NCBI GenBank assembly: GCA_907163375.1 | Contig: CAJQUW010007117.1 | Coordinates: 1-64,000, forward strand | Direction: 5' to 3' | Source: Prostheceraeus crozeri | Taxonomy: Eukaryota > Platyhelminthes > Polycladida > Euryleptidae | Length of the DNA stretch: 64,000 nucleotides | Notes under the pieces: model-generated | Told to the model about the DNA's origin: nothing | The model's database searches: none | What the model saw: only the letters and a program-made list of their open reading frames with translations | Position numbers and translations under genes: made by a program | In this document: piece after piece, positions 157-64,000 of the stretch | Layout of the letters: each line of letters starts with the position of its first letter | Numbering within the stretch: position 1 is the stretch's first letter

Positions 157-164
157 TATATAAA
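157..164 (+). promoter_or_regulatory. TATA box of first small gene
   Basis: TATATAAA lies 38 bp upstream of the ATG at 202, a spacing that fits a short 5' leader. Similar TATA boxes precede the other terminal genes of the virus-like element. Confidence 0.55.
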
Positions 165-215
165 CCATTACCTCTCTTTCATTTTCATTCTATACTCCAT
201 CATGAACACACCTAA

Positions 216-2129: not shown

Positions 2130-2180
2130 ACTAGCCTGTTCGATCGTATGATGTGAATGAGAAGTGCTACAATCTTCCGA

Positions 2181-2188
2181 TTTATATA
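2181..2188 (-). promoter_or_regulatory. TATA box
   Basis: On the minus strand this reads TATATAAA, about 55 bp upstream of the ATG at 2129. Confidence 0.5.
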
Positions 2189-3164: not shown

Positions 3165-3173
3165 TATATAAAA
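3165..3173 (+). promoter_or_regulatory. TATA box of the DNA polymerase gene
   Basis: TATATAAAA, with a CCAAT sequence about 40 bp upstream (3126). The first exon ATG is at 3298-3300. Confidence 0.6.
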
Positions 3174-3297
3174 GGGAAACAGACTTAGTTTTTTATTCTA
3201 TATTTGATACGTATTGAGAATAAGTGAAGTCTCTATTTTGATAAACTATACAATTTTCTAACATTAAAGTATCATACTTAAACTTGTTTTCATTTAA

Positions 3298-6200
3298 ATG
3301 GTAAGTTGAAGATTTCCTCACTCATCTCCCTCAAACGTTTGGTTAATAGCATCTTTTTTAATTTCAGCCATCTACTTCATCACCAAAACGTTCCCTTCTC
3401 GAGGAAGCTTTAGAGCTGTTAAGTGAAGGTAAGTTGCAACAATAAACTATAACTTTAATAGAGATGATAGAATGATTTCTCTTTCAAGTGATGTTAGTAC
3501 CAGCTCAAGCGGACAGTCGCGGGAATCTAATGAGCGGAAATGTGATGATTGTGGTCACATCTTTACAAGGAAGCGTGATCTCGCCCGACACATCAGACAA
3601 CGTGTATGTCAACCCAAGACATCATCAATCTCCCGAGGTGATTCTATTTAACATGTCTCCTTTACTTGCGACTTTTGCACTATATCTTTTGAAACACGTT
3701 TTGAATTATCTTCACATAGACTTCACAACACGCATACAAATGATAGTTATAGTAACAGCATTTCGTCTATCCGTCTCACTGAAGTGTCGCTCAATAATGT
3801 AGTGAGAAATTACCATATGGAATCCTCAGAAACCATTGCTGATTTTCCGGAGTGGTTTCATCAAAATTCAATATTAATAGATGCGCTCTTTAGAAATTTA
3901 GACAACTTTAGAATAAAAGCGCTCATCTATCTTAAAATAAAATATGTTAAAGTTGATCATCATACTGGCGAAATAGTGCGGAGGTTGGAGTTTCACATAC
4001 CCTCCTCTCCTGCTACAGAGGTAGTAGATAAAGAAGTATCATTAAATTTTCACATTCAAGGGCTAAAATCAAATATTGATAAATTTAACGAGCGCGATAG
4101 TGGTCTGATTTTTGATGGTGTAGAATCTGCCATGTTTAAAATTACTCTATTAGAAAATTACAGTGGACGAGGCTCCTTCAATCTTCCAGAAACGTTAAAA
4201 GATAAGAAAGCATTCATTTCTAAAGATTGTGAATCGCACTGTTTTAAGTATGCGGTTTTATCCATTCTCCACTATCATGATGTACAGAACAACCGTTTCC
4301 GTAAAATCAAATATCTTCCATGGGAGAATGAATTGAAATTTGATGACTGTAATAGTGAAGATATAAAATTGAAAGATATAGAGAAATTTGAAAAATTAAA
4401 TGAAATTAAAATAGTTGTTCACGTATGGCAAAAAGGACTTAAAGGTGTACGCTACAACAAACGTTCATCAACTTATGATCGCGTTGTCAACCTCTTGTTG
4501 GTATATGAGGATAGCAGTCAACACTGGCGTTACTGCGGTATTCCAAATATTCGTCGACTATATTCCATTTAACATCCAAAAGGAGGGAGCATTTCATATG
4601 TGACCGTTGTATGAGATCCTTCTGGTCAAAAGATAAGTTTCAAACACATTATGAATGGTGTAAGCGAGGTAAATTGCAAATGAAACGCATGCCCAAAGAT
4701 AAAATCTTTTCATATAGAGAGAATGGTAGTGAATTAAGTCCTCTTCGTGTCATCTATGCTGACATCGAATGCTATATCGATGATAACATCCACAAGCCAG
4801 CAGCCATATCCTGTTATGAGGTATGGCATAATCATTTCGAAAATAAAAATAATAAAATGCACGTCTGGCAAGGTGATGATTGTATACACAAATTCTTGCA
4901 ATTCCTGGAAAGTGATAGTAAATTTCAACAAAAATATGATAGTGAACTCTATCACAGATAATTAAATATGACAGCAGATGATCAGGTAAAATTTGAAAGT
5001 TGTAAAGTCTGCTCAAAATGTAATAAAACGTTTGATGAGGGTAAAATTAAGAAAGTGCGTGACCATGATCACATCACTGAAAAATTTAGAAACGCACTGT
5101 GTTCAAGATGCAATTTTTCTCTAAGAATGAAACGGCGCACTCTACCCGTAATTTTTCATAACTTCAAAGGCTATGACAGCCATATGATAATAAAAGGGGG
5201 GTTAGGAAAAATGAAGGGATGGTTGATGAATGTTATAGCTCAAACGAGGGAAAAATTTATGTCCATGACAGCAAAAGTACCAGTTTATAAGACTAAAGAA
5301 AATAAGACAGTCTACTTTGATATAAAATTTCTAGATTCCTATGAATTCATGACTTCATCACTAGCATCTCTCGTTCAAAATCTTAAGTCTCCTCCATTAA
5401 CTCAAAATTTGAAGAAACAATATCCTAACTTGACGGATGAAGTCATCACACGCAAAGGAGTGTTTCCATATGCATACTTTGACTGCATTTCTAAACTTAG
5501 TGAGACTTCTCTTCCGTCAATAGATAAATTTAAAGATGATTTGACTGGTATAGAATGTAGGGTACAAGATTACAATCATGCTGAAGTTGCATGGACAAAA
5601 TTTGACTGTCAAACGTTTAGCGATTATATGATTGCCTATCTAAAATTAGATGTATTTTTGCTGGCTGATGTATTTCAGGAATTTCGACGAGTGACATTAG
5701 AAGAAGATAAATTAGACCCTATCCACTTTGTCAGTCTTCCAGCCATGTCATTCCAGTCTGCTTTTAAATGACTGGAGAGAGCATCCATCTTTTACAAGAT
5801 CCAGAGATGTATAATTTATTTTAGCGAGGAATTCGCGGTGGTCTCACATTTGTAAATAGACATCAAATAAAATCAAAACAGTAGATGATGATCAGATTCA
5901 TCTAAAGTACTATGACCACAATAATTTATATGGTAGTTCACTATCTAAACCTCTACCTCACTCTGAGTTTAGCTGGCTAGGTGATAGTGAAATTCAACAT
6001 TTCTCCAATCCTTCAAACATTCTAGCTATTCCAGATGATAGTGATTGGGGATATTATTTTGAGGTAGATCTTATCTATCCAAATAGTATTAAAAATAAAA
6101 CTGTGGATTTTCCACTTGCGCCCGAATCAGTTGAAGTGACTGAAGATATGTTTTCGGACTTTATGAAACAATTTTATAAAGATTTAGAAGGGAGCGACAA

Positions 6201-7434: not shown

Positions 7435-8748
7435 TCACTTTGTTTTCCGAAACACTAAAGTTATGAGGGATTTAGTATCTTTCACATGGATGCACTCATG
7501 TAGACCATTTGTAATTTTGATAGAAATAGATGGTATAGTTTGATTGATAACAGGATGGTAGAAAATAGGTTGAAACATCCTCTCGACTATTCCATATAAA
7601 GCATCCTTATCATGAATGAAATCACGTAAAATGTGTTCTTTTTCCTCGCCAACAGAAATAGGTAGAATCAAATCACTTTGAATGTAAAGGTGTTGTTCAT
7701 GTTTATCAAGTGTCATTGGTGTTTCCATACCAATCGTATGCGCAACAGTAAATATATTTTGCAGCATTGAAAACCAAAGAGTTTTTTCAAATTTTTACTC
7801 AATTGAGATTGAATGTCATCACCCAGTTTCAGAACAACGCGTTGATTTTCAATTGAAAACGAAATGTGGTGTGTCTTTACATCATATTTACTTTTCATCA
7901 TATGCTTCAACTTCTGTTGCATATAAGGATTTATTACATGAATGAAGCTTTCAACTGTATGATATAGATGCGGCATTATATTGATAGCAACTTTAGATTC
8001 TTGATAAGACTGGTAAATTTTCTTGATGCGATCACCATAGATGTCCACCCACCATTCATCATTAACTGAATCAGCTTTAGTGTGATATTTATGAGAAGCA
8101 TGAACCAAACCGCTTCCAATAGTAGGTGTATGATGTCTTACAAAATGACGCAAGGTTGGAGAGAAATAAACTGTAAGTTTGTCATTATATTTCTGAATAA
8201 ACAACTTATCTTTGTCCGCCATAATTTTCTCTCCATACTTCTTACCCACAGTCTCATTCCATCGTTTTACTAACTCAATAAGTGATAAAGGTTGAACACC
8301 ACGCTTTTTCAATATGATGCGTTCTTCACATTCTACAACATCTTCATCAAATATTTTAAATTTATAATGAAATTTGTTGATTCGATTTGAATAAACTTTT
8401 TTAACATTTGCAGTAGCAATTGACGTTAGATGTAGTCCATGGCCAAAACCGAGATGTGGATAGAATTCATTATCCAACCTCAGTGTAAGACCTTTAGTAA
8501 AAGAATGAAAGCAAAGGAACTGTCTCCCACTCCAATGATAGATAGTAAACTCATAAACTTTCTGATCCTTATTCTTCATGATGGAAGTATTACCACTATT
8601 GAATGCCTTAATAATTTTCTCATCCCCAAATGGATCATAGAAATAGAAATAGAATAGAATTTATTCAATAAATGAAAATCATTTAAGTTACAGTATATCG
8701 TTGCATTAAGGAAAAATATACGCAGTCAAAAATAAAATAGAAGAAAAA

Positions 8749-10073
8749 TCACACAACTCTTGAATTTAAAGCAGTCGCACAACAGAATGGAACAAAGGAA
8801 TTCAAACGTCTTGTAGTATTAGCAGAAGGCTGTAAGAGGCGATGAGTTCGAGTAGAACGTTGAGGCATGAGATCATGTAAAATATGCTTCTGGTCAATAC
8901 ACGCTTCATGAAACAGTCTACAAGCAGCTTCAAGCCGACGTTGTTTTAAGTCAGGGAAACGGTTGCAACCACAATTCGATGTTCGAAAGTATCTTGGCAA
9001 AGAACAAATCAATTTGTGATAACGATTTTGACAACGTTCCAGTTTGTACTCAAGAGAAGACGGCAAATGAACAAAAACGCATGAAGCATATTCGAGAATA
9101 CTTCGTATTAATGCGTAATAGGTAACAGTCAATTCATTGGAAGAGATGAGAGGCCTGAGTAACCGAATCCCATACATCCTCTGATTAGCAAACTTTATCA
9201 CTGAGTTGATGTGAGCATCCCAAGTGAGGCGGCTATTCAGCTGAACACCCAAAATGCGAAGAGTATCAACGTCCTCAACATCAGAATGCACGGGAGAAAA
9301 GCAATCATTAAATCTTTGGATGAACAATTTCTTAGAATTCGCGTTGTTCAAAGTGAGACCGTTAGATGTGAACCATTGGATCAAGTGTAAATGCTCACTG
9401 ATAAAGTTAGTCAAATTATCTCTACGAAAAACTGGGATACAGTAGGCTAAATCATCAATGTACTTGATGATAGTTGAACTTGAATCGACCAATGACAGAG
9501 ATGCGGCAACACACAGTACAGATAGGGGCCGAATAAAGAACCCTGTGGAACACCGGATAGAACTTCAACTTTTTTGCTGATTGAATCACCAATTCTCACC
9601 GCCCGAGTACGACCTGATAAATAATCACGTATAAGATGAATGAATCCCAAAGGTACGTCAATTTCAATCAGTCTCTGAATGACAATGTCATGTCGGAGTT
9701 GGTCAAAGGCTTTTTTGAAATCGTAAGATACGATTTGAACTCCCCCAATGTCATGCCTATCAAGGAGGCGTGTTGTATCGTCCATCAACTTCAACAATGC
9801 CGCCGTAGTAGAAGAACCCGGACGGTCACCGAATTGATTACTGCCGAAATGATGAATAAGAGCATTTTTAACACCACTTTGAAGAACAAGATATTCTAAG
9901 AGCTTTGCGGGCAGGGGTAATAACGAAATCGGTCGAATATGCTCTAGATCGAAGCAGCCATGTTTGGGGATTGGAGATACATGACTGTATTTCCATCTGG
10001 TTGGTACACGTCTGTATACCTCTGTATATACGAACAGATTTTCCTTCATTCTGAGGTTTTGCAATTTCAGCAT
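8749..10073 (-). pseudogene. LINE reverse transcriptase, frameshifted
   Basis: RT domain in order: VPTRWKYSHVSPIPK and RPISLLPLPAKLLEYL (N-terminal RT), motif A YDFKKAFDQLRHDI, motif B GVPQGSLFGPYLY, then after a frameshift near 9480 motif C YIDDLAY, and the thumb (LRILGVQLNSRLTWDAHI; TYYALIRSILEYASCVF). The catalytic Asp residues of motifs A and C are present. The first Asp of the usual [FY]xDD box is preserved as YIDD. The C-terminus is open to the end at 8749. It can no longer be translated as one protein. Confidence 0.85.
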
Positions 10074-10683
10074 CTCTCCTTTGTCTCAAATATCTTTCTT
10101 GATGTTGTTGAAAAGGTGTCAGATCGCAGTTTACGTAAACATTGGGGAACTCTTCGGATCTCCTCAGCATTCTGGAGGCTTTCAAATTCTCCCATTTCTT
10201 AGAACTATTTCGGAAAATAACTCTGATGGGGCGTTTTCTGTTACCAGGTGGTCGACCAATTCTGTGAATACTGAGACAATCTTCGTCAGTGTTTAAAGGC
10301 ACATTGATGGTATTGGCAATACGAACCACAACAGCGTTCAAATCGTGTGATCCTCTGATAATTATATTATTTTTTCGAATTTCACGTTCATGCTTTTCAA
10401 TCACGGCACCTTGAATTTCAACTGTTTTCTTTAACACCTCGACCTCCTTTTTCAATGCGTGATTATCAGCAATAAGAATATCGAGCTTTTTGTTCATTTC
10501 AATAAGTAACGTAGAAAATTCATCAGTTTCAAAAATCTCCGCCTTGGAATTAGAATCAGTACGCTTATTTCTCAATTTGATTAAGGCATCAACCAGCTGA
10601 GATTTTGTACAACTACACTGCCGCAATTGGGAGTCTGACATACTGAGAATGTCATCAGACTCTTTGATTCCCTTTCTAGACAT
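10025..10683 (-). CDS. LINE ORF1 protein, truncated
   Basis: Starts ATG-TCT-AGA-AAG at 10,683. The N-terminal part has a Ser/Asp-rich segment and CSCTKSQLVDAL. A Leu/Ile heptad coiled coil follows (about residues 55-105: LLIEMNKKLDILIADNHALK and VEVLKKTVE). Then come EIRKNNIIIRG and LSIHRIGRPPGNRKRPIRVI, a pattern typical of the RRM-like nucleic-acid binding domain in ORF1 proteins of this LINE group. At about 10,030 it runs into RT sequence in another frame, so its natural end is lost. Confidence 0.65.
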
Positions 10684-11535: not shown

Positions 11536-12300
11536 TTAACTCTTCATTCGGAAATGGAGTGTGATACTTGTCACAGCATCTTTATGAAAAGGAATCAACG
11601 CACCAGCATCGTCATAAATTGCAATATCAATTTGTGGGATGTAGTTTGATTTCAACTTTGTATAATGCACTTTTTTGAAAGTATGCTCAGATAAAATACT
11701 GCAGCTTTTTGGCTGGTATGGTATCATTGCTAGCAATGGAGCTTCAACATCTCCCACACGTACATCTTCACCAATATTGGAATATATCTGAAAATAGTTA
11801 ATACGACGCGATAGCGACATGTCTGCGCTAGCTTTGGTTAAAGTACCTTTTTTAAAGATATTTTGATCAAAACCCAAAATGTCCATTAGAGTTTTATCCA
11901 TAATTAGTTCAATACCTTTTCCACTTACAGTGAGAGACAAAGCACCTTCTTTTTCAGAAAATGAAATATGTTGCTCATTAATCACTTCATTTAAATAATC
12001 TACAACCAATTTAACTGAAGTAGTAATGCGAGGCATCAACACTCTTGTTTCATGTAAGATACCACCTAAAGGCTCTATACGCTTTCTGCATAAAGATACG
12101 GTCCATTCTGTATCAAATTGATTTGACCTTTCACATGGCAAATGTTGCATATCAAATTTTCCATGAACAGCCGCAGAACGATGACGTAAGAACTGATGAA
12201 AATCTTTTGAACAAACTAATACTAGATCATCATCATTTAATTTACTTATTGCAATATGATTAGATGATTTGATATAAGTCAATGTTGCCACTTGTTTACA
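11536..12300 (-). CDS. Polinton capsid-associated protein (VTLHFR type)
   Basis: The open frame of about 250 codons ends LIPFHKDAVTSITLHFR. It contains LMDKTLMDILGF-like and VGDVEAPLLAMIPYQ, followed by YIPQIDIAIYDDAGALIPF. This series (YSNIGEDVRVGDVxxPLL...P, then I-x-I-x-D-D-x-G-x-x-I/V-P-F, then V/I-T-L-H-F-R) is characteristic of a protein in many animal Maverick elements, from memory of the family. It is probably a virion component (penton/minor capsid candidate). There is no clear ATG: the frame opens after a TGA at about 12,335 and may continue from the gene at 12,320-12,967 through a frameshift. One of the few open core genes here. Confidence 0.65.
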   Translation of the reverse strand, partial: CKQVATLTYIKSSNHIAISKLNDDDLVLVCSKDFHQFLRHRSAAVHGKFDMQHLPCERSNQFDTEWTVSLCRKRIEPLGGILHETRVLMPRITTSVKLVVDYLNEVINEQHISFSEKEGALSLTVSGKGIELIMDKTLMDILGFDQNIFKKGTLTKASADMSLSRRINYFQIYSNIGEDVRVGDVEAPLLAMIPYQPKSCSILSEHTFKKVHYTKLKSNYIPQIDIAIYDDAGALIPFHKDAVTSITLHFRMKS

Positions 12301-12319: not shown

Positions 12320-12967
12320 TTAAATTTTCTTCAATAATTTTTTAGGAGTCATGTTTGTCTTTCTTGGCTTAATCACAATCCTCTTCACCAACGTCTTCTC
12401 ATTTCTTGGAATAAGATCTACATAATAAGCTTCCTCTCGATATATTAACTCTTTATGACCACTTGGGTGGTAATTAGCGTTATAATTATCGTAGCTTGTT
12501 AAGGCGCTAGCGAGGCAACCTAAATCATTTCTTAAACTTGGACTTAAACCAACAATCCAATCTTTCTCAACTACATGATGTACATAATTATGATCATCAT
12601 TGTGCGGAGTAAATTGGACAATATGTTTACACGCTTTATTCAGGAAATCATAAACGAATTTCTGGCGTGATAGAAGATCTTTCTTCGGCCATTATGAGAT
12701 GTATACTCGGCAGCTTTTTTTACATTGGTAAGCAGCTGTGCGTCTCATATTAATAGTCATCACCTCATGATCAAAAGTATAGACACAGTTGCTATGAGCA
12801 AGTTGAGTGACACCCACTTCCCACTTTCCATTTAGCTGTTGTGTATGATCAATGGGAGTAGAAAAGAGTGCGGCTCGATTATTTGTTGCTAAATTGCTAA
12901 GCAAAAATGGTAAAATGACATTTTGATATTCTGGTGATCCATATATTACCAATTTGCATAACATCAT
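12320..12967 (-). pseudogene. Second WEVG-type Polinton protein, frameshifted
   Basis: Starts ATGATG at 12,967. The N-terminal part has LLSNLATNNRAALFSTPI and LNGKWEVGVTQLAHSN, the same LxGxWEVG signature as the gene split by the LINE, so the two are distant paralogues. After about residue 80 the frame changes near 12,700. The downstream frame runs FVYDFLNKACKHIVQFTPHN ... WIVGLSPSLRNDLGCL ... and ends with a Lys-rich tail at 12,320-12,322. This second segment has no early ATG but is clearly coding-like. It may once have continued into the VTLHFR gene just downstream. Confidence 0.6.
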
Positions 12968-13322
12968 GAAGACTTGGATTTTGGATTCTCAACAATACAT
13001 CAAAGTTGATCGCAATGGAAACATTCATTTCAAAAATTCTCATGGAAATACATCGAGAGGTATTACATTAACATGGCGACAATTTTTAAATCTTAATGAC
13101 ATCATGAGGGATTTGGAATATTTTGAAACGCTAAAATTCATCTCTTTGGGTAATCAAGTTTGGCTTCAACATTACAGAAATGAAATTCAAATCTGTCACT
13201 CTGATTCCTCAATCTATTTTTCATTTCGCAAATACAATTGGGAAAAATATAAAAGATGGATACCTCGCTCCATTATGTCATTTATTCCACGAGAGTTCAT
13301 CGCCTTGCTATGCAAATCTTAA
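12966..13322 (+). CDS. Small plus-strand protein, copy 1 (possible PC4-like)
   Basis: ORF of 118 codons from ATG 12,966 (MKTWILDSQQYIKVD). The first half, with an aromatic/basic strand pattern then SRGITLTWRQFLNLNDIMRD, resembles the PC4/p15 single-strand DNA-binding fold (K/R-G-I-x-L-x-x-x-Q/E-[FW]-x-x-L). The second half repeats a strand-rich pattern (FISLGNQVWLQHYRNEIQI; FSFRKYNWEKYKRW). A diverged duplicate follows at 13,359. Its start codon overlaps by two bases the start codon of the minus-strand gene at 12,967. The PC4 link is inferred from pattern only. Confidence 0.5.
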   Translation: MKTWILDSQQYIKVDRNGNIHFKNSHGNTSRGITLTWRQFLNLNDIMRDLEYFETLKFISLGNQVWLQHYRNEIQICHSDSSIYFSFRKYNWEKYKRWIPRSIMSFIPREFIALLCKS

Positions 13323-13358
13323 TCAGACACCACCTTCAACACAATGTTACGCTCCATC

Positions 13359-14012
13359 ATGAACAGTTGGAAATTAGATTCCCTACAACATGTTGAGATT
13401 GATTATGATCAAAACGTTTATTTCAACGACTATACTGGAAATATGAGAAGAGAATTTGCTTTATCATATCGACATTTTTAATGTCCAAATCATATCATGA
13501 AGGACTTGAAATACTTCTATATGAAAAGACGTTCACGCATAGGAAATCGCATATAGTTGCGACTAAAAAAGCAACGAATACAAATCTATCATTCCCAACT
13601 TTCTGTCTGCTTCACATTTCATCAAGGTAGTTGGGAAAAGTCTAAAAGGAAGATACATCGCTCTATTTACTCATTTTTTCATCATGAGACGTTATTGTTA
13701 CACCATCGTCAACATTCTCCGCCGCATCAGACTCTATACCAAAATCGATCTCGCAACATTACATCAACAAATTCCAAACAGCAAGTATTATCCGGGTCGA
13801 CCGCAAATGTTAGTGGTGAAGATGAGCAATTTACCGAACCTTCAACTCTTTCCAAATGGGACGGTACAAATTCTCGGCGCCCTTTCTCATTCATCGATGC
13901 GGTTAATGCGCTTAGAACTGCAGAAGCTACTACGTGGGATATGGAAGAGGGAGAGGTGTGTGATGTCGAATCTGACTGTGAACAATATGGTGATCTCTAC
14001 TCAATTGAGTGA
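13359..14012 (+). pseudogene. Small plus-strand protein, copy 2, with C-terminal extension
   Basis: Diverged tandem duplicate of the gene at 12,966: MNSWKLDSLQHVEIDYDQ aligns with MKTWILDSQQYIKVDRNG, and SVCFTFHQGSWEKSKRKIHR with the copy-1 C-terminus. The same frame is interrupted by TAA 13,479 and TAG 13,554, then stays open to 14,012. The extension is Ser/Thr-rich and ends in the acidic tail WDMEEGEVCDVESDCEQYGD. This last third overlaps the TBP-like ORF in another frame for about 330 nt. It is either a real overlapping gene or fortuitous openness. Confidence 0.45.
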
Positions 14013-14229
14013 AAATGCATCGTTTTCGAAGATTCATAGCAGCAGCTACAATTTGTGTTATGAACCAGAAATTTTTCCTGCAGCTCTCATTAATTGTTGG
14101 AATCATGTACATATTGCAATCTTTCACAACAGTAAAGTTATCATTACTGGACTGAAGTCAGAAGTGCAAGCAGATACAATCCTAGACCGCTTAATCGAAT
14201 ATGTACATACCCAGCGGATTGTGAAATAA
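13684..14229 (+). CDS. TATA-binding-protein-like protein
   Basis: Intact ORF of 181 codons, about the size of the TBP core domain. Two repeats are visible. Repeat 1: YTIVNIL, then IDLATLHQQIPNSKYYPGRP-QMLVVKM, then LQLFPNGTVQILGALS. Repeat 2: SNLTVNNMVISTQL, then YEPEIFPAALINCW, HIAIFHNSKVIITGLKS and a final helix DTILDRLIEYV. These follow the TBP plan of N-[IM]-V, [EK]-Y-x-P-x-[RL]-F-P, then F-x-[NS]-G/K-[VK]-[VQ]-x-T/L-G-A/L-K/L-S. The second-repeat YEPE[IL]FPxLI signature is especially close. Role inferred: recognises TATA boxes of the element's own genes. Closest context is a Maverick-like element; it could be a captured host TBP paralogue. Confidence 0.7.
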   Translation: MRRYCYTIVNILRRIRLYTKIDLATLHQQIPNSKYYPGRPQMLVVKMSNLPNLQLFPNGTVQILGALSHSSMRLMRLELQKLLRGIWKRERCVMSNLTVNNMVISTQLSENASFSKIHSSSYNLCYEPEIFPAALINCWNHVHIAIFHNSKVIITGLKSEVQADTILDRLIEYVHTQRIVK

Positions 14230-14259: not shown

Positions 14260-14721
14260 TTATTTCAAATCATTATAGAACTTACAAATCATTTTTTCAT
14301 TAGAAGATGGGTTACATGAAAACTTTTGAATAACAGATTTAAATCGACGTACATGCAAACGTTTTAAAATGAAGTGTAATACGAAAGCACCAAAAGATGA
14401 TGAAAGTAGATGTTGTAGTATGCGTTCATTTCGTTGATATTGACGAGTATGTTTTCTCAACCACTGCTGTGTTGGTATATTTGGAGGTTGAGCAAGAGAG
14501 TCAAATAGTTCACCGCGTCTGTCTTTTCCAATAAAGATAGCTTTCCAATGTTCACCTTCTAAATTCTTTGACTGAGTTTTCAATACAATAAAGATGGGAT
14601 ACTGTTTTACTGTAGTTGGTAGGTTATCTAGCGAATAGACATTATCAAAAGCTTTCAACGTAGCTTTATCTACATTACGCTGTACTTTAGCTTTAATATC
14701 GTCAGCATTCAACCAAATCAT
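14260..14721 (-). pseudogene. Polinton adenovirus-type cysteine protease, active-site Cys lost
   Basis: Family role: processing of virion proteins. The ORF is open for 153 codons. The catalytic His sits in GEHWKAIF (about residue 58), followed by GELFDSLAQPP as expected for the family. The position of the nucleophilic Cys, normally S-S-x-C-G-x-[YF] after a Leu-Gln pair, reads LQHLLSSSFGAFVLHF, with Phe (TTT) in place of Cys (TGT/TGC). The gene's ATG overlaps the capsid gene stop by one base (TAATG on the minus strand), a sign of tight gene packing. The protein would not be catalytically active. Confidence 0.8.
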
Positions 14722-15984
14722 TAACGATTATAGTGAAGAATCACGTCACGATACTTAGTTATTTCAATATTTGAATCAAAAACTGCATAAATCAATACAT
14801 TGATCGTCGCAGCTAGCGTTGTTTTAAACTCCAGATCCAAGCGAATGTTATGAGGAACGTTAGCTTGACGATAAGGTGCACTAATATCACTGTCAGCAGT
14901 CAAATGCATAAATAGTATAGCCATTCTTAAACTCCATCATTGTAAGCCCGTTGGTGTCGTCTGTGTTGTAAAAGCCAAAGACATTCATGTAGTCAACATA
15001 GCTGCGCAAAAATTGATAAGAGGAGAAGTCTGGTCTATATGGCGGTCCAGGATGACTGACACCATTCACACGTAAAGCAATTTCGCTCAAACTGTTGTGT
15101 TTGAAGTTGAAGGGATTCTTCTTGATATTGCCATTGAATGCATCAATTTTAACAATTTTCTACCATTAGGAGTTTTGGTGCTTCTGATGGAAATAAACCA
15201 TCTTTCATAAAACTCTTTTAATAGTAAATGTGAGAAGCTTTGTATGTTGAATGGGATAAATAGCATTGCTACGGTTAACACCCTCAGCATGTCATCTAAT
15301 TACACTTGGATTAGCTACCACTCGACGAATGTATAGCGTAATATCTTCCACATGGATTTTATAATTGACAACTTTAGCATATGCATTCAAAAAAAATCCA
15401 GGCTTCTTCAATGTAAGTTTGACTCGCATGCTGGTATTCCAGAGTAAAAACTTTGACTGTCTGAAGAAGTCAAGATTTAGTGGACCATACAGCTGACATA
15501 CTTCACTATCTTTAATCAAAGCAGATCGCTTTACAAAACAAGTGTTTTTCTCACTATCAAATTGTGTTGCTTCATCTCTATACCATCCCATTGCTTCCAT
15601 ATGACTCTTTTGTGCTGACGGATGAAACTGTGATAGGGCATTGAAATATGCTTTATAGGGATAATCGCTATGTCCACCTTCTACCTGTTGCTCTCCAATA
15701 GTTAGAGAAACATCACGAAATAGTGTTGCCAGCGGTAAATTGTTCAGACCAACTTTATGTGCATCATCGATATTAGTACCATCTGCTTGCTGAATTCTGA
15801 ACCGCACATCAACCATCGCATAACTTAAATCAATGTAGTCATCACTAGCACCAGGAATGAGAAATTCAATTGGACCAGTATTCTCAGAAGTTCGAGGATT
15901 ATAATCTACAATACTTGAACTAAGAATATCTGTCTGTATCGCTTGTTGATCAAACAAACAAAAATTTGAAGTTTTACACTCCAT
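14721..15984 (-). pseudogene. Polinton double-jelly-roll major capsid protein, frameshifted
   Basis: N-terminal half is open (15,292-15,984): CLFDQQAIQTDILSSSIVDY, then GPIEFLIPGASDDYIDLSYA, VGLNNLPLATLFRDVSLTIG and YPYKAYFNALSQF. These are hallmark blocks of Polinton MCP. After a stop at 15,292 the remaining coding sequence is spread over other frames: KNPFNFKHN-type region (about 15,100), SEIALRVNGVSHPGPPYRPD, SYVDYMNVFGFYNTDDTNG, GYTIYAFDC, and a C-terminal block LDLEFKTTLAATINVLIYAV ending at 14,721. At least three frame changes or stops are present. Full length would be about 420 codons, normal for the family. The start lies 2 nt after the stop of the upstream basic protein. Confidence 0.9.
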
Positions 15985-16461: not shown

Positions 16462-17495
16462 TCACTTGCGATCACTTTGATGAAAAATATCTGCACGACG
16501 CATCCAAGAGTTCATACTTGAAGGATAGCCGAAGCATTTAACAAGACACCATTCTTCGCCTTGACGTTTTTTGCAACGGATGATTTTCTCTACCAAATAT
16601 GTTTCACTTTCAGTGACTATCTCAATCTCATCACGGTAAAAGCTGCCATCTATTTCTTCATTATCGTAATCTTTTAACCTGTAAGTTGTGGGAGAGTCTT
16701 TTTTATTGATGTTTGAAACTGTAAAAATTTCTTCTGTCCAATTCGGGAGATAACCTTTGCAAAAACACTCTTCACTTTTGATATGCGAACTTTATCGCCT
16801 ATTTTTACATCACTTTTTGCATTATTACGCTTACGTTGGAATGTTTTACGCACTTCATCTACATTGTCAGCATTCACATCTGCTGGTCTGAGTCTAATAG
16901 AGCGATGTACAGAGTGATTGTAGGCATGGAGTGTATCTTGTAGAACCTTTGTCCAATTTTGTGTCAAGTTGGCAGTAAAATGTCGCCACAAGCGATTTTT
17001 CAATGTGCGTTTAAAACGTTCAACTAATGCAGCCTTATAGGCACTCTTTACACTAAACAACTCAATGTCATATCTCTCAAACAATCTTCCCACATGCTGA
17101 TCACTCTGAATTCTCTTTGGAATGCGACCCTCTTGGAAAATTGACTGAAATGCCTTTGCTACTCCTTTGCCTTCTTTAGTTTTTAATGGTTGAGCCCACG
17201 CATATCGCGAGAAAATATCAATTACTGTCAAAATAAAGTTATTTCCTGAGTTATGTTTTGAAATAGAGGCAACGCCACACAAATCTGCCTGCCACTGTTA
17301 ATCAATGTCATGAGTAATATAATGACGGGTACGGTACTTCTTTTTCGCTTGTTTGTGGAGTGTATAGGTAGCCTGACCCTTTAACCATTGTTTAACTTGT
17401 GACTGTGGAAGATCACTCGCTTTTGACAATTTCCTTATAGATGCAAATCCTGCTGGATGTTTTACATCATAGTATGTTGACTTTAAAAGTTCATG
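16462..17495 (-). pseudogene. Polinton retroviral-type integrase with chromodomain, broken
   Basis: N-terminal region YYDVKHPAGFASIRKL and QVKQWLKGQATYTLHK is followed by an in-frame TAA (17,298-17,300) just before QWQADLCGV. The DDE core shows Asp in LTVIDIFSRYAW, Asp in IQSDQHVGRLF (normally D-x-G-x-E-F; the Gly is shifted and the motif is degraded) and Glu in ALVERFKRTLK. A frameshift near 16,750 moves the end into another frame: NWTEEIF, then the chromodomain EEIDGSFYRDEIEIV ... YLVEKIIRCKKRQGEEWCLV ... GYPSSMNSWM, stop 16,462. No good ATG is seen at the 5' end; the frame opens at about 17,495. Confidence 0.88.
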
Positions 17496-22983: not shown

Positions 22984-23076
22984 TCTAGTTGAAAAGTAGG
23001 ATAGATGAGCTGAGAGAACGTGCGTCCGTCACTTATACGATTCAAAAATAGAATGATTATCACTCTAAAGTCTCAT

Positions 23077-23085
23077 TATTTATAG
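23077..23085 (-). promoter_or_regulatory. TATA-like element of the right-end gene
   Basis: On the minus strand CTATAAATA, about 95 bp upstream of the ATG-only exon. Two CCAATGA sequences lie 25-45 bp further upstream. Confidence 0.45.
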
Positions 23086-24493: not shown

Positions 24494-27400
24494 CCCTTTG
24501 ACAGCGATAAGAAATTGCTAAGTAATTTTAATATTTTTTTTCTCTGATATGAATAAGAAGTGACTAAGATAACATATTTTTAACTTAAATATTTCAATTT
24601 TTCAATACTGTCCGAAATCTGGGATGGGTCACAGGTGACCCAATCGCCGGTAAAGGTAAAAGTAATCGAAATATGTGAAATTGTAAATTTAGTCTGTATG
24701 TACTTTATTATGATTAAATTACTATCTGCATATTGTTTATGATGATAAGTAGGTATTAGAATAAACACTATTCATTGAAAAAAGTTAGATAAAAGTTCGT
24801 TTTTCATGTACGTGCATATAAACTTCAGCATATAATTCATTTACAGATGATTATGAAACATTTGGAAACAATTTCGTTCCTTGAGCAAACAAAGAGGTAC
24901 ACTGCACGTTACACATGAGACAAAGGTTTTTCTGTTTTGTTTCGCCTTTGCGCAACGAGCACAACGCTTCCTATCACCAAACGTAGGAAGATGTGCTATT
25001 TCACCAGATGAAGGAATTGATGTAAATTTCCTTTTAGTTGCCTTTGATTTGGAAGAAGCCCTTTAACGGCTTGAGTATTGAGCAATCAAACCTTCAGCAA
25101 CACTAAGTTTGAAATTTTTGAGATCAATGTTGTCTGATGTGAATTTCCTGAAAACTATATGAGAATTGACACAAGCGATGTCAATCAAATCAAAGAAAAT
25201 GCGCAGGTAGAACCTGTATTTTGATCTTCTGTCCAATTGATAAGTGGTCTTCAATTGGTCTGCAAGGTCCACACCTCCCATTCCACTATTGTATTGCTTG
25301 ATTACCAGTGGGCAATTTATTGCAGTCTTTCCGCTTGTTCCTTTCTGTCGCCTATACACAGAACTTACTTCGTCGGCTCCATCGACATTGTTTGCCAGAA
25401 CTACGACCGACCTGAAATCAGAGAGTTGATAAAACTATCATGCAATTTACATACATTTATACTTCGACACAAACGTAGTTTTAAAGAGTTCTAAACAATC
25501 TAACAATCTTACCTAAGCCTGTACCTTTTATCTCAATATAGCCTATTCGTAGTTAGGCTTCTAGAACACTCCTTACGGATTAGATAAAGTAATTTCTTAT
25601 AACGCTTACAATGATTTTTAAGTTCGGATGAAAAATGAAAACATAAGAAACATTATGATCAGAATTATGAATATGTCAAGCAGCCGATACATCAGAACGA
25701 ACCTGTTATCCATCCATTTGCAACAAAGAATTTGATTCGAAAATTTGAAATCGATATCGCCTCGCTTCATACATTTGTCCTCCTGAAAAGGTCAATTCAG
25801 TTATAACAGTAACACAGTTGAACATTATTTTTAAATGTTCAAAATCCATTCCTTTTACTATATTTGATAGATCGTCGAAATTATGTTTGATATCTATAGA
25901 TATTAGATCGAAGTTCATAAACATACAAATATGAGAAATCAAAAATATATCGAAAAATCTGGCGCCACTTGACTACATGCGGAAATTTCTGTATACTGAT
26001 AAAAAATATATACGTGCACCGCTACTAAATCTGAAGAATGACTAAAACTTGCCCCAACATATTGCTGAGGTTATAATATTGTTAAGAGCATTAACCTTCA
26101 GTTTGCAGGAGCTTAAAAATTAATAGGCTTGAAAATTTAAGTAATCATGGTAATTTACTTAAAATTCTAAGACATTAAAAAATAGTTGCAACTTCACTTA
26201 CTTTTAGACGGCGTGGCATGTTCTTTCTGTTTACTCTTGCAGTCCCCATAGCATAAATCCCATTTTCAAATAATTGCTTGATCAACCTTGGACTTGTGAA
26301 GAAGTTGTCGAAAAAAACTTGACAGTAAGAACCGTTGAGTTTCTCACATAATTGTAGAACCACACTTTCGCCTAAGTTGTATTCTTGCGTTGCAGTTTTG
26401 CGAGCAAGATAAATATCAAATTGATACACGTATCCAGTTTTGCTGCAGCATCTAAACCACATCTTAAAACCCCACTTGATGAGTTTTGACTTAATATACT
26501 GTTTCATAGACGATTTACCTTTAAATTTTATCATATGTTCGTCGACGCTTTGCGAATCAGAGTTCTCAAGCGATGCTTGGAAAGCGCAATTTAAATGATT
26601 AATTACGAATCTAACTTTAGCCGCTTTATCACTTGTCGAATTATCCTCCTGCGTATTATCAGAAAAATGTAAATTCTGTAGAATTAGTTTGAATCTGTCT
26701 CGTGGCATGGCACACTTCACACCATCATTTCCCATGTAAGTGGCTGTTGACCAATAATCATCAATTGATGGCAATTTATTAATTGACATAATATAGTTCA
26801 AACCAATAAAAGCTGACATTTCTTCTGCGTTTGTCATGAACGCTCGACCATGTTGCTGAGCATATAAGTTCGTCTGTTCAACAATATGAGAAATAAGAAC
26901 TTGCCAATTTGTCACTGTCTTGAAAGTATCCAAAGGTGGCGAGTCGACACTTAGATTGCATAAAACCTCTCCAACTAAATTGCATTCTTTTCGATCTATG
27001 GGAAGTTCTTTATTTCTCCAAGTCCAGTCAGGTTCTTCTACAGGTGCCTTTTCTTTCTTGTTAGCATCACCTTCACCATGAATCGTTGCTGCTGATATAA
27101 GGGGGAAAGACGTAGTTGGCTCTTCAGCTGAAATGTCTCGTTCTTCTGATTCGGGGCATATGAACTCCGTATCGGAATCATTCATCAAGTTTAAAATGTC
27201 TTCTTCATCGTCGCTGTTTACTGACTCGAGTAGCGCGTATATTTGATCAGAATTCATTTGAGTTATATTGAAATATCGCTTTTGTGATGAACTGTTGGTG
27301 GCCATAACGAAGCAAAATAGAAACACTCACAGAGACGGCAGAATCAACGATACTCCTACACTTTACAGTTGTCGAAACTGGTGATGCTACTCTCTTTGTA

Positions 27401-41636: not shown

Positions 41637-42664
41637 TCACATTTTACCCCAAACTAAGCTGACTCGGCCCCCACTGATCCTATTTTTCATGTGCTCTTTG
41701 ACTGTGTCAGAATATAGTTTTCGTCCTAATAAGTCATAACCAAGTCCTAGAAGCTGAGAAATCTGAGCATTGAAGATTTTTCCGTTGGGCACGTCAAAAG
41801 ATCAAGACCTAACTCAATACCTTCACCATAATCACACTCGTCATTTGCAAACTGAACCAAAGTGACCATTTCATCAAGTGGTTCAAATGCTACTAATCGA
41901 TCCTTTTCATTCTTCGCTGATACGATCTTGTTGAGAATTTTCTTTATGGATGATGCTGTTTCGGGCAAAGGTCGGTATCCAATGTCATTCTCATCTACAG
42001 GCACAACTAGTCCAATGTTATTTAATGTTTTGGACACCATCCGCTTATTTCTGGCTCTGATCGTTGGCGTGACATCATCTAAAGGAAGATTATACTTTTT
42101 TGCCCAAGATTCAAGCTTAGAAGTGATTAATTTCACATCTGGCTTTGACGAGTCTTTCGAAGCAAATCTATGGACAGCCGAGAACAGATTTTCGCCTTCG
42201 AAGCTAAAAGAGCCATCTTTTTCGGCAGCGTTAAAGGCTACAAAGTTAGGAAGTTCCTCTGGAATATCTCTAAAATATCCCCAATGACCTAGTGATCTGT
42301 CGTTGGCTTTGATGATTGTAGTGCAAAATTCTGGTGGATCATGGAAGAATCGATAGTGTAATGCCCAAGCAATACTGTCATCGTCCTTAAGTGAAGTTTT
42401 CCTTAACAGGTCATAAGGGCCAACTAGCACCAGACCAAGAGAGGACTTCAAAGCGTGTGCTGGAGAGAGCGGATTCAATTTCTTGCAAAATTCCCACATA
42501 AGTCTAAAATCTGTAGGAAATTTCATTTTGTAGCATTTTTCGACAGCTTCAATATTGAGGAGAGATACATTTGAATCATCTGAACTCTTTCCGCTGTCCA
42601 CTTCTTCTTTCGCTCTTTTTGATGAAGTAACTTCACTTGGTTGGTCGATAGACGCTCTCTTCAT
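41637..42664 (-). CDS. HPF1: Histone PARylation factor 1 (host gene), one frameshift
   Basis: Known role: HPF1 binds PARP1/PARP2 and completes their active site, directing ADP-ribose to serine during DNA-damage response in the nucleus. Seen: MKRASIDQPSEVTSSKRAKE (nuclear signal), then KCYKMKFPTDFRLMWEFCKK, LGLVLVGPYDLL, YRFFHDPPEF, LGHWGYFRDIPEELPNFVAF, GLVVPVDENDIGYRPLPETA and EMVTLVQFANDECDYGEGIE, which carries the catalytic Asp-Glu pair of HPF1. The frame stops at 41,747, but a one-base shift in an A-run at 41,792 restores the conserved C-terminus (SQLLGLGYDLLGRKLYSDTV) to 41,637. No intron interrupts the coding part. A 3' splice site (CTGCATTCATTTCCAG) just before the ATG suggests a 5'UTR intron. 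Confidence 0.93.
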
Positions 42665-44790
42665 AGTTGATATAATCTGGAAATGAATGCAGCAGATGAA
42701 ATAATAGTAATAATTCAAAATAGTAAAATTCCGCTTAAACAGCATTATAAACAATGAATTGAAAGTAGCCGATGCTGTTATTATTGTTTTATTTCCCAAA
42801 TTTTCGCCTACACAGGCCGCGTCAGGGGATAAAAGGATTTTATGTTTACAAATATCAAACGATTTTGAAAATATTGTTAGTAAGATATCAAGGTTTCAGT
42901 AAGTAAATAAAATCCATAGAAGTATTGATAGTATATGAAGTGCATAGATGTAATAATTACATAGATGTAAAAATTCTTCATGGAGGTATAAGTATAGAAA
43001 ATGTTATCAAATAATTCATATAAAAAGGAAATGTTTATATTGTTCACGTTCTTCTCTCGAGTTAATTTTCGGTTGTAGCTTGTTGATCCACACTGCTTCA
43101 CGTAGTCTGATGTTAGTATTGTCGTGTTCTTGTGTTATTACTTCTGTTGTTATGTGGTTACTGTTGCATAATTTCAAATGTTTATGTACTGATGATGCTT
43201 TTTGAGTAACGTGCTCAAGAAAATAGTAATAATAATAAAACAGCTAGCATGCACAGTTTGTTAACACGAAATGAGGTTAAGGGAAAAGTGACAAATCAGC
43301 ACCTCTGACTAATGTCACCTTGACCAGTGGTCCTACGCGGCGGATTTCCATTTTTTTACGCAGGCCGAGTAAATTTACGCAGGTAGACTATTCGCATGTG
43401 ATGAATGAAAGCACCGTTTATACATTGATAGAATTTCAATGTGATCAAAAAAATTAGAAAAATTTTAAAAAAATTAGACATTAAACTTTCACGTTTGGAT
43501 ATGACGAATTTACAATGCAATCACGAATGAATTACGAATGCAAGTAATCATTCAACAAAGTGTTGAGTATGTAGGCCCATATGAATTTATAATGCTTGTG
43601 ATGGAAAACGTTTAAATAGTTGATCAACTCAACGCCCCTGGCTTTCACGGTCAAAGGACATTTCGTTATTAATCTTGGCGCAATCGCGAAAAAATGATTT
43701 TTGTAGCCCTCGCAAAAGTCAGCGGCATTGTATTGCTACATGTGAATATGGCAATGTTCGCCTAAAAATTATTAATATTTGATTTTTAGTAATAATAGAG
43801 GTTTCAATCAGTACATTTTGCATTATTTTTAGAAAAGCATCGACATGTGAGAACATGCTTGTATATTTGAAAATGTGGAATCATATTGTTCTTTTAGAAT
43901 AACCGTCTTATCTAGCCTGCTCAGTTCATACCTAATCAAAAATGCGTTACATCATGCAGTCTGCATTGCAAGTAATTATTTCTCTCTTGAATGAATGCTA
44001 AGAGCATACGATTTTTTTGCATCGATCACATGTTCTTGAGGCCTCTCTGTCTTTTGCACATTTGTGGAATCTCTTCCTGGACGATTTCTGGGAGGTTTTT
44101 GTCGATGCTTCATCATGGCCGCGTTCATCTTCATCGACACAGATCTTTAGCTTACTCAACACCTATTTCTGATACAAGTTTCTATCGATATTCCACGTAG
44201 ATGAAAACCTTCATTCATTCGACAGTTCACTATGGAAGTGTATTTTCGGCGAGGACGATCTTCCATCAATATACTTTCCTTCAAATAAAAAAATATTATA
44301 TATCTTCCAATGATCTACACACCATCCAGACTCAACCATGCAGAGTGCAGATCCTCCACCCAGAGAAGACTACCAAGCCAAGCACAGAAGCCTTGAAGCT
44401 TGAGACCGACGAGGGAAAGTTTGAGGCCTACATGTATTAAGTTTTCATGAGGGCGTTGTGATTGCACGTATTTGATAGAGATAGACATGGACAATTTCAA
44501 AACAGTATAACATGTCAAAGTACCAATTAATTAGGAGCCTGCGTTCAGGCACATTTTGAGACGAATTGAATCATGAAAAACTTACGTAGACATAAACAAA
44601 CTTCTGTTTTTATTGAAGATTTGTTAAGCCGGCTATACCTCTAGCTATGGAGAAACCTGTCTCATTGAATAATCACGTTTTTCTAGATGACTGTTGAAAG
44701 ACTTTGGCACTTTGGCATTCATAGAAATAAACATTCAACATTAAAGCGCCTATATTTTTCTGAAATGATTATTGTCAAACACACTTTATA
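42665..44790. other. No gene recognised
   Basis: AT-rich DNA upstream of HPF1; any 5'UTR exon of HPF1 should lie here. Short open frames at 43,991-44,440 lack family features. Confidence 0.45.
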
Positions 44791-60398: not shown

Positions 60399-63280
60399 TT
60401 ATTTTACCCTATAGAAGCCCGGATATGTATTGCGTTTTCTGAGATTATATGAATGCTTATTCCTTGGTGTGTGCTGATTAACTGCATGTGTTTGTGTATC
60501 CTGCACAGCCTCATCGTATGCCATGTCTGCGAAATCCGCATCTCCATTATCCAGTGGGCATTCAGTGTCCAATATAGGCTTAAGGTTTCTCTGGTTATAA
60601 TTCCTTAACAATCCAGAATTATCCAACATAACTTAGTACGTATATTTCCCAACTTTGTTTTGAATTTTCCCCCTCATCAGGAATGGTTGTCGATCTCCTT
60701 TCCGCACAAGGACATTATCGCCAATACTGTAGTTTCGATGTCGGTATGACTTGGCTTTATATTCATTTGCCACATTACGTTTCCGTGATGTAGGTCCTTT
60801 ATAGCTATCTCCCACTTTGAGTAGATCCATCTTGGTTTGCATCGCTCTTCTGAACATCCTTTATTTGGCGTTTCAACTGTTACGTCGTTTGGAGTTGATC
60901 TTATATCAAATAGTACTTTCTGTAGAGCAACATGAAAAGGTAAATTTGTATTATACAATATTCTTGTGATACGACTTTTTAGTGTCGAGTGCAATCTTTC
61001 AACTGTACTATTGGCACGTGGATAATAGAGTGAAGAACAAATATACCTGATACCATTTTGGCGAAGGAACGAACATCTCTAACTCTCTGGATACGAATGG
61101 AGTACCGTTATCGGAGACTATAGTTGTGGGTAGGCCAAATCTTGCGAATTGTACTTGTAAGACTTCAATAATCTCTCTTGCATTGCCACGTTTGAGAATA
61201 ATTGCTTCCGGATATCTACTATGTAGATCAATTGTAGTCAAGAGCAAGTTTCCACAAAGCTTATCGGAGGGTCCTGTTAGGTCAATCGATACTTTTGACC
61301 ATGGTTCAGCTTCATTCTCCGCGACGACGGATAAGGGAGCAGCATCTCCTCTGATTTGATATGTTACGCATGAGTTGCATCTTTTGACGAATTCTTCGAT
61401 ATCGTTTCCCATCCCTGGCCAATAGACATAGTTTCTAAGCACATCTTTCATTTTTGTAATTCCCATATGACCTTCGTGGGCCATGTCCATGATGCGTCGT
61501 CTTAGGTGCGTAGGAATGACTACTCGATTTCCTTTGGTGATAATTATTTTGTCGTCTTGCGATTTCAGCGATAATTCATCTCTGATGTGGTAAAATGGCA
61601 GAAGTTGTTTAGTAGATGTAGGCCATTCGTCATTTATAGCAGATATCACTTTCTTCAATTCCGGATCATTTGACGTATGATTTGCCACATCCTTCAAACA
61701 TAAAGGAATTGATCGTATTATATTGTATATAGTGTAGCCTACTCTGCATTTTCTTCAGGTGTAGGAGCTTTCATTATTGAATTTCTGGATAGGCAATCCG
61801 CTAAGACGTTTTTGTTTCCCGGTATGTGAACAACATCGCAATCAAAGTGCTGAATGGCAATTAACCATCTTTGAAGCCTGTTAGATACTTGGTCGATTGG
61901 TTTATTCAGTATTCTTGTAATAGGTTTCTTATCTGTTTGCAATTGAAAGTCGAGACCTAAGATGTATTTCGAGAATCTTTTGAGGCCAAATACCACACCG
62001 AGAAATTCTCTTTCAATTTGTGGATAACGTTTTTCGACGTCGGTTAGCAGTCGAGATGCAAACAGAATTGGAATGTTATTTAGCAGAAGTACGCTTCCAA
62101 GTCCAGCTCCCGATGCATCAGTTTGGATTACGATGTTCTTCTTGGGATCAAAGTAGGCTAGTGTACTAGCATGAGACAACGCTTCTTTCAATTTATAAAA
62201 GGCTGTTGAACGTTGTGATGTCCATTTTATCGACTTATCATGTATCATTTTCCATAGCGGGTCTGCAAACGTGCTGTAATGGGGAACAGTTTGTTGTCTG
62301 ATATAGCTAGCAAGGCCAAGGAATGATCGTAGGCTCTGTAAGCTTGATGGTAAAGGTATCTGCTGTAAGGCTTCTATCTTCTATGGATCTGGTGCTAATC
62401 CTGAAGATGACCATACATGTCCTAAGACTCGCACAGAAGTTTTTGATATACTGCATTTTGCTTTGTTCAAAGCCAAACCCGCATTGTCGATTCGTTTGAG
62501 AACTTCTTTAAGAACTTTGTTGTGTTCTTCTTGTGTAGCGGCTGCGATCACAATATCGTCAATGTATGTAATGACATTGTCAATTCCCTCCAATATGTTC
62601 CTCATCACCTTTGTATATACTTCTGGAGCCGAAGTTATTTCGAAGCAGAGTCTGGTGTGGCAATAATTACCGAATGGGGTTGAGAATGCAAGATACTTTT
62701 GAGAATTTTCTGTAATCGGTATTTGCCAGAAACTGTTCTTCAAGTCTAAGTGTGAGAAGATTTTCGGATTCTTCACCTTTGTTGATAATTCAAGCAACGT
62801 AGGGATTTGTACTGTTTCTCTCATTACATTCTTGTTGAGCTGACGAAGGTCCGCAAAGAGTCGTAGATCTCCTCCCTTCTTGAATGCGACTACCAAAGGT
62901 GAGCAGAAGTGCAATGGCTGGTCTATTCTTCGTATAATACCAATTCGGCACATCCGATCCAACTCATCCTTTACCCGTAAATGAAGCGCAGGGGGTATTC
63001 TTCTAGCAGGGGGAGCATACGGCTTCGCATCTTCTCTCAGCGTTACATCATATTCATAGCCCGTTTTCAACAAACCTTCTCGATTAAAGACATGGTCATA
63101 TTCACCAATCAATGCACGTGTACCATGACTATCAGTATGTAAAGAAAGTGTATTTTAGTCTATTGGGCTATCAGCTAATTCTGCAATTATTCCTAAACGT
63201 TTGCTAAAACTGTAAGTAAGCAACGGTCTACAATCATGCAAATCCATGACTACACATTTATCTTTGTACTCCATGGTACA
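60399..63280 (-). pseudogene. Ty3/Gypsy pol (RT, RNase H, integrase), broken
   Basis: RT (62,384-63,112): DLRQLNKNV, SHLDLKNSFWQIPI (catalytic Asp) and TYIDDIVIAAATQEEH. A TAG at 62,381 precedes the connection (LQSLRSFLGLASYIRQQTVP). RNase H: VIQTDASGAGLGSVLLLN, REFLGVVFGLKRFSKYILGL and HIPGNKNVLADCLSRN. After a shift near 61,720, integrase follows: zinc site AHEGHMGITKMKDVLRNYVY-WPG...CNSC, then WSKVSIDLTGPSD and TTIVSDNGTPFVSRELEMF. Another shift near 61,075 puts the catalytic Glu (RANSTVERLHSTLKSRITRI) in the next frame, and a third near 60,870 leads to the C-terminal NYSIGDNVLVRKGDRQPFLM. Order PR-RT-RH-INT is that of Ty3/Gypsy. Confidence 0.92.
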
Positions 63281-64000
63281 TCAGCATTTACCAAGAAAAG
63301 TAATATGAAAATGGCCATAAGCTTTCACTGTGACAGAAGTTGGTTGTAATTGTAAATCAGACGCTAAATCTATGGGGATCGCATTAATTTGAGCTCCGGT
63401 ATCACAAAGTACAGTAAAGACAATATCATTAATTTTCACATCTTTAATTACATCATCGTCATTATTAGTAGAACTAAAAATATTGTAAGTCTCACTAGGA
63501 GAAGAAATGTCTGTTGAATTTACAGTCATAGTTCTAGTCTGTTTTGATCTACAGCATTTAGGTAAATGTCCGATCTTACCACATTCCCGACATTTGATAT
63601 CCTTTGCTGGGCAGTTGGGATCCGATGCCAGATGAGAACTATCACCACATCGATAGCACCGTCTATCTCCATGTTGCCATTGCCTTTGACTGGATATTCC
63701 TTTTGATTGTTCCTTTTGATATTTCGTAGAATTGCCATCTCGTTTCCTCGCGGATTCTCGACTCTTTGACTTGAAATTGAAATTCGTTTGATTGGTAGAA
63801 TTCATTGATGATAGTTGAACGGTTCCTCCAACACTCCGACGTTCGGTCCTCGCTCTTTCGAACGCTTGTGCCTTTCGTATTGCATCTTCGAAAGTCAATT
63901 AATCATCTTCCGAAAGTAATCGCTCACCGAGATGATCATTATAAACTCCAATGACGAAAATATCTCTGAGCATCACCTGTGTTGTGGTCCCGAAATTGCA
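63281..64000 (-). pseudogene. Gypsy gag-protease, runs off the window
   Basis: The frame continues from the window edge through QVMLRDIFVIGVYNDHLGER (capsid end), a TAA at 63,899-63,901, LTFEDAIRKAQAFERARTER, a basic Ser/Gln-rich linker, then two CCHC knuckles (CYRCGDSSHLASDPNC and CRECGKIGHLPKC). Aspartic protease motif VFTVLCDTGAQINAIP follows at about 63,410. The frame stops at 63,281, just before the RT-leading segment. Confidence 0.9.

Follow-up and report, generated by a model that had tools for sequence, protein, structure and literature searches.

The TATA-binding protein (TBP) is among the most conserved eukaryotic proteins, and its virus-borne versions are known from genomes much larger than that of the element described here. 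In KSHV, ORF24 has 752 residues in four domains, keeps F99 and is missing the acids of the TFIIB side, according to PMC12529657. A TBP of mirusviruses is also on record (PMC10132985). In open-licence full texts, no animal Polinton, Maverick or adintovirus was found paired with a TBP. Nor is a TBP in an animal Polinton reported in the accessible portions of PMC10675990, PMC10132985, PMC12220804, PMC10120064 and PMC12529657. We analysed a stretch of 64,000 nucleotides (hereafter the window), for which an earlier note had proposed that a Maverick-like element carries its own TBP and thereby brought a promoter-recognition factor for its own genes. The gene in question is the following.

13684..14229, forward strand: TBP-family gene, 181 aa, with repeat 1 at about residues 6-90 and repeat 2 at about residues 97-173

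The two TBP repeats that the note had recognised in this intact 181-codon ORF were borne out by a Pfam search, in which the ORF matched the TBP family (PF00352) over two stretches with an E-value of 9.4e-21 and 73.9 bits, against a family cut-off of 22.9. Structure prediction and fold comparison gave a predicted saddle fold as well. Homologues were found elsewhere too: a single-sequence protein search yielded 20 relatives from 43 candidates, and a profile search yielded 147 at E<=0.001, the best 120 of which include those 20. When intact copies of the element TBP were compared between subfamilies (70 copies against three copies of another subfamily), Ks was 0.340, Ka was 0.095 and their ratio was 0.28, which indicates that the protein is under purifying selection between subfamilies. 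Among the three copies of the other subfamily themselves, Ks was 0.033 and the ratio rose to 0.58, a value that young copies would be expected to show. An intact TBP was present in 68 of the 93 unique places fetched at >=75% identity, a set chosen by TBP similarity and therefore over-representing intact copies.

To place the gene in its setting, the following neighbours are needed.

4968..5771, forward strand: piece of a family-B DNA polymerase (PolB) gene, Pfam DNA_pol_B_2, E=4.6e-8, 32.8 bits, cut-off 25.8
12966..13322, forward strand: PC4a, a small gene 5' of PC4b, present in 28/28 loci
14260..14721, reverse strand: gene convergent with TBP, present in 28/28 loci
15292..15984, reverse strand: gene piece that may be capsid-like, present in 28/28 loci
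16674..17282, reverse strand: partial rve-type integrase gene; the Pfam rve match (E=8.9e-5, 23.1 bits) does not reach the cut-off of 32.6

The TBP gene lies, as had been claimed, between a left and a right gene block, being flanked by the PolB piece and by the integrase-side genes. The product of the 14260..14721 gene may be an adenovirus-type protease; this gene had no significant match in Pfam or PDB, and the 15292..15984 piece had no match in either. More generally, pieces in the window may resemble a double jelly-roll capsid, a packaging ATPase and a protease, for which no weighty match was obtained in Pfam or PHROGs and, for the capsid and protease pieces, none in PDB. PC4a had no Pfam match and three relatives in the protein search. 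Its start codon at about 12966 may overlap head-to-head, as judged by eye, with that of a minus-strand gene. Terminal inverted repeats of >=30 nt enclosing the element were not found in positions 1-26000, and the window starts at the contig end.

The order PC4a, PC4b, TBP, followed on the opposite strand by the 14260-type and 15292-type genes, was the same in all 28 loci, that is, the window and 27 others in the same 2.05-Gb, probably animal genome; the minus-strand gene at 11536 was matched in 26 of the 28. The genome contains at least 150 integrase matches, with open frames of up to 439 codons among the matches listed. Counting by hand from the TBP and integrase matches listed, which gives a lower bound, an integrase lies no more than 5 kb from a TBP in at least 32 places (window included) and is always convergent with it. 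For PolB and for the end promoters, the association with TBP was seen in the window copy. Among the matches listed in the genome TBP searches, those examined look like further element copies, and three rows of the yeast-TBP search, again among the matches listed, were host-gene TBP. The constant neighbours, the nearby integrase, the purifying selection and the wide family together uphold the view of a Maverick-like element with its own TBP.

Two groups of copies stand apart in this genome. L097, L099 and L100, with rows that have 234-codon open frames, form a subfamily whose scores are nearly the same at many places and which probably spread recently, given the low Ks among three copies. L092, L093 and L096 (C4594, C12605 and C432 of G000) represent a second TBP-bearing family, whose TBP is 40-41% identical and which shares the overlap and the TATA/TCATT spacing described below. 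The window also holds several other features. A 350-codon intron-free ORF at 41747-42799 (reverse strand) matched histone PARylation factor 1 (HPF1) in Pfam with E=2.6e-68 and is possibly a retrocopy. At 26175-27326 (reverse strand) lies a transposase (Pfam DDE_Tnp_1_7, E=5.7e-68), which we take to be of piggyBac type. The stretches 8749-10683 and 61008-63898, both on the reverse strand, resemble by eye a retrotransposon reverse transcriptase and gag/pol; 8749-9492, a piece of the former, had no Pfam match.

The first part of the TBP gene is also open in a second reading frame.

13344..14012, forward strand: PC4b, a diverged second copy of PC4a (38-46% identity)
13557..14012, forward strand: ORF, the remnant of the second frame in the window
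13684..14012, forward strand: TBP codons 1-109, also open in frame +2 and continuous with PC4b in other copies

PC4b of the window is broken by two in-frame stops. In 40 of the 93 unique places it is open, as a frame of at least 190 codons that runs into the TBP gene; its stop falls 326 nt inside TBP in 73 places, and PC4b and TBP are both intact in 28. It is the DNA of repeat 1, not that of repeat 2, that is open in the second frame. From predicted secondary structure, a PC4-like fold for PC4b would be a guess. The second frame was at first set aside, since codon position 3 of TBP is still the most variable one inside the overlap and PC4b of L097 ends before TBP. It was reconsidered because gene calls in other records begin halfway through the TBP gene, and the hypothesis was thus formed after inspection of the data. 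Among the relatives, 39 of 41 short gene calls (<130 aa) begin at TBP residues 84-103, as gene finders do when an upstream gene overlaps.

The TBP codons were then redrawn synonymously, and the fraction of redraws that left the second frame open was recorded. With the codon use of the element, this fraction was 0.0002 in L002, the type of the window (codons 1-107), and 0.0006 in L093 (codons 1-100), two types whose TBPs share 39.9% identity. The lowest fraction among the controls (other frames, both second halves and four other genes) was 0.04. Openness of the second frame across repeat 1 could be a non-coding by-product of the TBP codons, which we consider possible but doubtful. Such a by-product would agree with the variable third position, with the early end of PC4b in L097 and with the higher fractions of 0.0014 (L002) and 0.0024 (L093) obtained with the codon use of TBP itself. 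It would also agree with the seemingly unconstrained tail residues: across 34 copies (two of 36 were dropped for indels), pN/pS was 1.29 in the tail frame, 0.17 for TBP in the same stretch and 0.33 in the PC4b domain, and only 26 of 102 tail residues are identical between the two families. However, the small fractions in two families with such different TBPs, the single long PC4b frame and the starts of the short gene calls argue against it. Compared with the rest of TBP, divergence in the overlap gave a nonsynonymous ratio of 0.51 (0.32-0.88) and a synonymous ratio of 0.68 (0.41-1.12), the latter not significant. Acidic residues outnumber basic ones in the last 40 residues of the tail, by 11 to 1 in L002 and by 9 to 5 in L093. 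Given the pN/pS of 1.29, selection would keep at most the presence of the tail and not its sequence. The TBP gene of the element may thus overlap a second gene.

In canonical TBP, the TATA box is contacted at its 5' end by repeat 2, which also contacts TFIIB, and at its 3' end by repeat 1, which also contacts TFIIA. The DNA-contact residues of yeast TBP, as given in Table 1 of PMC12529657, were mapped onto the element TBP by profile alignment and counted in yeast numbering over 71 full-length proteins, the window protein among them. In repeat 2, N159, V161, F190, P191 and F207 were conserved in all 71, and T215 in 70, the remaining one having a gap. V213 was replaced by I in 39 and M in 22, kept as V in 6 and replaced by L in 3, and L205 had become T, A or S. 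The acids that contact TFIIB in canonical TBP were present in 71/71 at positions 186 and 188 (numbered 184 and 188 in PMC12529657). In repeat 1, F116 was retained in 71/71 and N69 in all 60 proteins reaching that position. F99 was changed to Pro, A101 to Met and V122 to Gln, each in 71/71, and both L114 to Gln and T124 to Leu in 62/71. Among single genomic copies, position 99 was Pro in 70 of 75, the deviations being expected from decaying copies.

The element protein is a member of the TBP superfamily and not a canonical TBP, because only three of the four DNA-intercalating Phe (99, 116, 190 and 207) are kept and position 99 is Pro in 71/71. By its aligned residues, its saddle is asymmetric, with the DNA face of repeat 2 mostly kept and that of repeat 1 rebuilt. 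Since repeat 2 is the side that binds TFIIB, the conserved half is the TFIIB half. With its altered repeat-1 DNA face, the protein may recognise something other than a plain TATA box.

The putative promoters in the window are listed below.

157..190, forward strand: TATA and initiator-like motif, 28 nt apart, before a start codon at 202
2155..2188, reverse strand: TATA and initiator-like motif, 28 nt apart
3165..3198, forward strand: TATA and initiator-like motif, 28 nt apart, ahead of the PolB side
23051..23084, reverse strand: TATA and initiator-like motif, 28 nt apart, directed from the right toward the interior of the element
13641..13675, forward strand: possible TBP-gene promoter inside PC4b; most copies have TATAAAAGG at -43 and TCATT at -13

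The TATA boxes noted earlier at 157, 2181, 3165 and 23077 are present, and each has an initiator-like motif exactly 28 nt on. A fixed spacing of 28 nt agrees with the separation of TATA box and transcription start in Pol II promoters. The pattern TATAWA-22 bases-TYATTC occurred four times in 64 kb (157+, 2188-, 3165+ and 23084-) against 0.10 expected and a maximum of one in 100 shuffles, an excess that is partly due to selection since the motif was defined from these four sites. Looser versions gave 7 against 1.4 and 7 against 2.4 expected. The bare TATAWAWR showed no clear enrichment in the window (58 against 46 expected, with 58 reached in 7 of 100 shuffles). The four sites are situated toward the two ends of the element, a simple motif search found no 28-nt motif in its middle, and a 30-nt version of the pair stands before PC4b, at the end of PC4a. 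As sequences, the four sites appear unremarkable, and the host TBP could use them. Just past the start codon at 202, an inverted repeat pair at 212-242 and 947-977 (31 nt, 94%) looks like a small inserted element within the gene.

Before the TBP gene, TATAWAW was found at -50 to -40 in 75 of the 93 places, and in 71 of them TCATT follows at a distance of exactly 30 nt. This spacing recurs in the distant L093 type; in the window copy, nothing matches TATA at this position. Coding constraint may account for this conserved pair, because the stretch encodes a motif common to PC4a and PC4b and the end of PC4a has the same pair. Six to ten ATGs were counted in the 340 nt 5' of the TBP start in each of seven copies, which makes leaky scanning unlikely and a separate TBP transcript likelier. 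YCATCATGA occurs at 197-205 (+), 8576-8584 (-), 13354-13362 (+) and 13679-13687 (+), its ATG being the start codon of an ORF of the element each time; four occurrences in the window against 2.9 expected by chance are not unusual.

Of the promoter-factor claim in the earlier note, the part that the element carries its own TBP stands, by its neighbours, selection and family, and the part that this TBP serves the element's own promoters is plausible. We consider it reasonably probable that an old, element-specific TBP acts as a promoter-recognition factor for Polinton transcription, most likely of the central structural (late) genes. This reading draws on the TBP family membership and predicted fold, the constant gene order, the Ka/Ks ratio, the pattern of kept and changed contact residues, the four TATA/initiator sites and the TATA/TCATT pair before the TBP gene. 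Repeat 2 with its stirrup would grip a TATA-like site by its 5' half and recruit host TFIIB and Pol II, and repeat 1 would read a different 3' half-site. The element promoters, or a late subset of them, would thereby be distinguished from host promoters. Early firing of the end promoters could fall to the host TBP. A switch from host TBP (early) to element TBP (late) would be an attractive scheme. The late-gene part is proposed because a simple search found no 28-nt motif in the middle of the element. Several points count against this explanation: canonical TATA sites need no special TBP; F99, which intercalates into DNA in TBP, is lost in every relative compared; a 30-nt version of the motif lies before PC4b; and coding constraint may account for the conserved TATA of the TBP gene. 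More tentatively, this small transposon-virus may have a promoter-selection system of its own, in which the host TBP fires the end promoters and the asymmetric TBP may then drive the structural genes through a hybrid site with a canonical 5' half and an altered 3' half. Since the changed half of TBP is the half whose DNA doubles as the PC4b tail, overprinting and the new specificity might have evolved together.

The element TBP might instead be a general substitute that does the ordinary job on all TATA promoters of the element, with neither an early/late split nor a new half-site. The canonical TATA/initiator sites and the retained TFIIB-side acids and repeat-2 face would fit such a role; however, the host already has its own TBP, and an unchanged site is hard to reconcile with a repeat 1 in which five DNA-face positions are replaced (three of these in 71/71). 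We regard this role as unlikely. A decoy, which would bind TFIIB or TATA sites unproductively and so damp host transcription or competing promoters, seems still less probable. The acids are indeed kept though half of the DNA face has changed, but a pure TFIIB sponge would not require the strictly conserved DNA face of repeat 2.

The host TBP itself is split into exons on another contig, with 79% (residues 4-123) and 86% (residues 120-156) identity to the yeast query, and a further TBP-like locus of the host genome has 39% identity to yeast TBP and one internal stop. Identity to yeast TBP is 23-26% for the element TBPs. A tree was built from 41 rows, of which 24 are element-type, 12 viral from IMG/VR and 5 cellular. 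In it, the element-type TBPs form one side of a branch with support 100/100 and a length of 1.83, for which the tree program warns of long branches, a point that bears on the origin of the lineage; the 12 viral TBPs lie outside the element clade. These 12 were confirmed, all as general viral TBPs, among 52 matches of IMG/VR scan A3, built from cellular TBPs. The IMG/VR pattern scans A1, A4 and A5 gave 17, 17 and 11 matches, none confirmed as relatives; none of 48 pattern matches in GTDB contigs was confirmed, and phage records gave none. Some relatives, among them P0009, P0095, P0101 and P0119, lie on contigs of 10-25 kb. P0022 (a PC4a relative) and P0094 (a partial TBP) both have a longest contig of 12876 bases, and P0023 and P0002 both have one of 1771 bases, which hints that relatives from other records may have the same PC4a/TBP neighbours; the Polinton setting was read in this genome, and not every relative need belong to a Polinton. 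Recent capture of a host TBP gene, or a host gene merely beside a dead Polinton, was rejected as extremely improbable: the genome does hold a host TBP and another TBP-like locus, but the element TBP is 24-25% identical to yeast TBP against the far higher values of the host exons, belongs to a single well-supported clade on a long branch and has constant neighbours in 28/28 loci.

That the element carries a strongly altered TBP suggests that a gene-start factor may be supplied even by a mobile element of small size. A small Polinton that keeps a TBP in very many copies, with relatives in numerous other records, would mean that such elements are able to choose promoters themselves. The protein is also a natural test case for the extent to which one half of the saddle tolerates rebuilding with the TFIIB contact kept, and it is a marker for this Polinton lineage.

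Like Polintons/Mavericks and adintoviruses, the element has PolB and integrase-like pieces in one stretch. With cellular TBP (yeast, human and archaeal solved structures), its TBP has in common the two repeats, the saddle fold, the repeat-2 DNA face and the TFIIB-side acids; it differs in forming its own clade, in the Pro, Met and Gln at positions 99, 101 and 122 in 71/71 and in a gene partly open in a second frame. TBP genes also occur in giant viruses and mirusviruses, eukaryotic DNA viruses with much larger genomes, according to BFVD matches and, for mirusviruses, PMC10132985. KSHV ORF24, a late factor of beta- and gammaherpesviruses, likewise has the TBP fold in a viral protein whose DNA face carries polar replacements (PMC12529657), and a role in selecting late promoters is ascribed to its type. 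In contrast to ORF24, the element TBP is one domain of 181 aa in which F99 is lost and the acids are kept, which is the reverse pattern.
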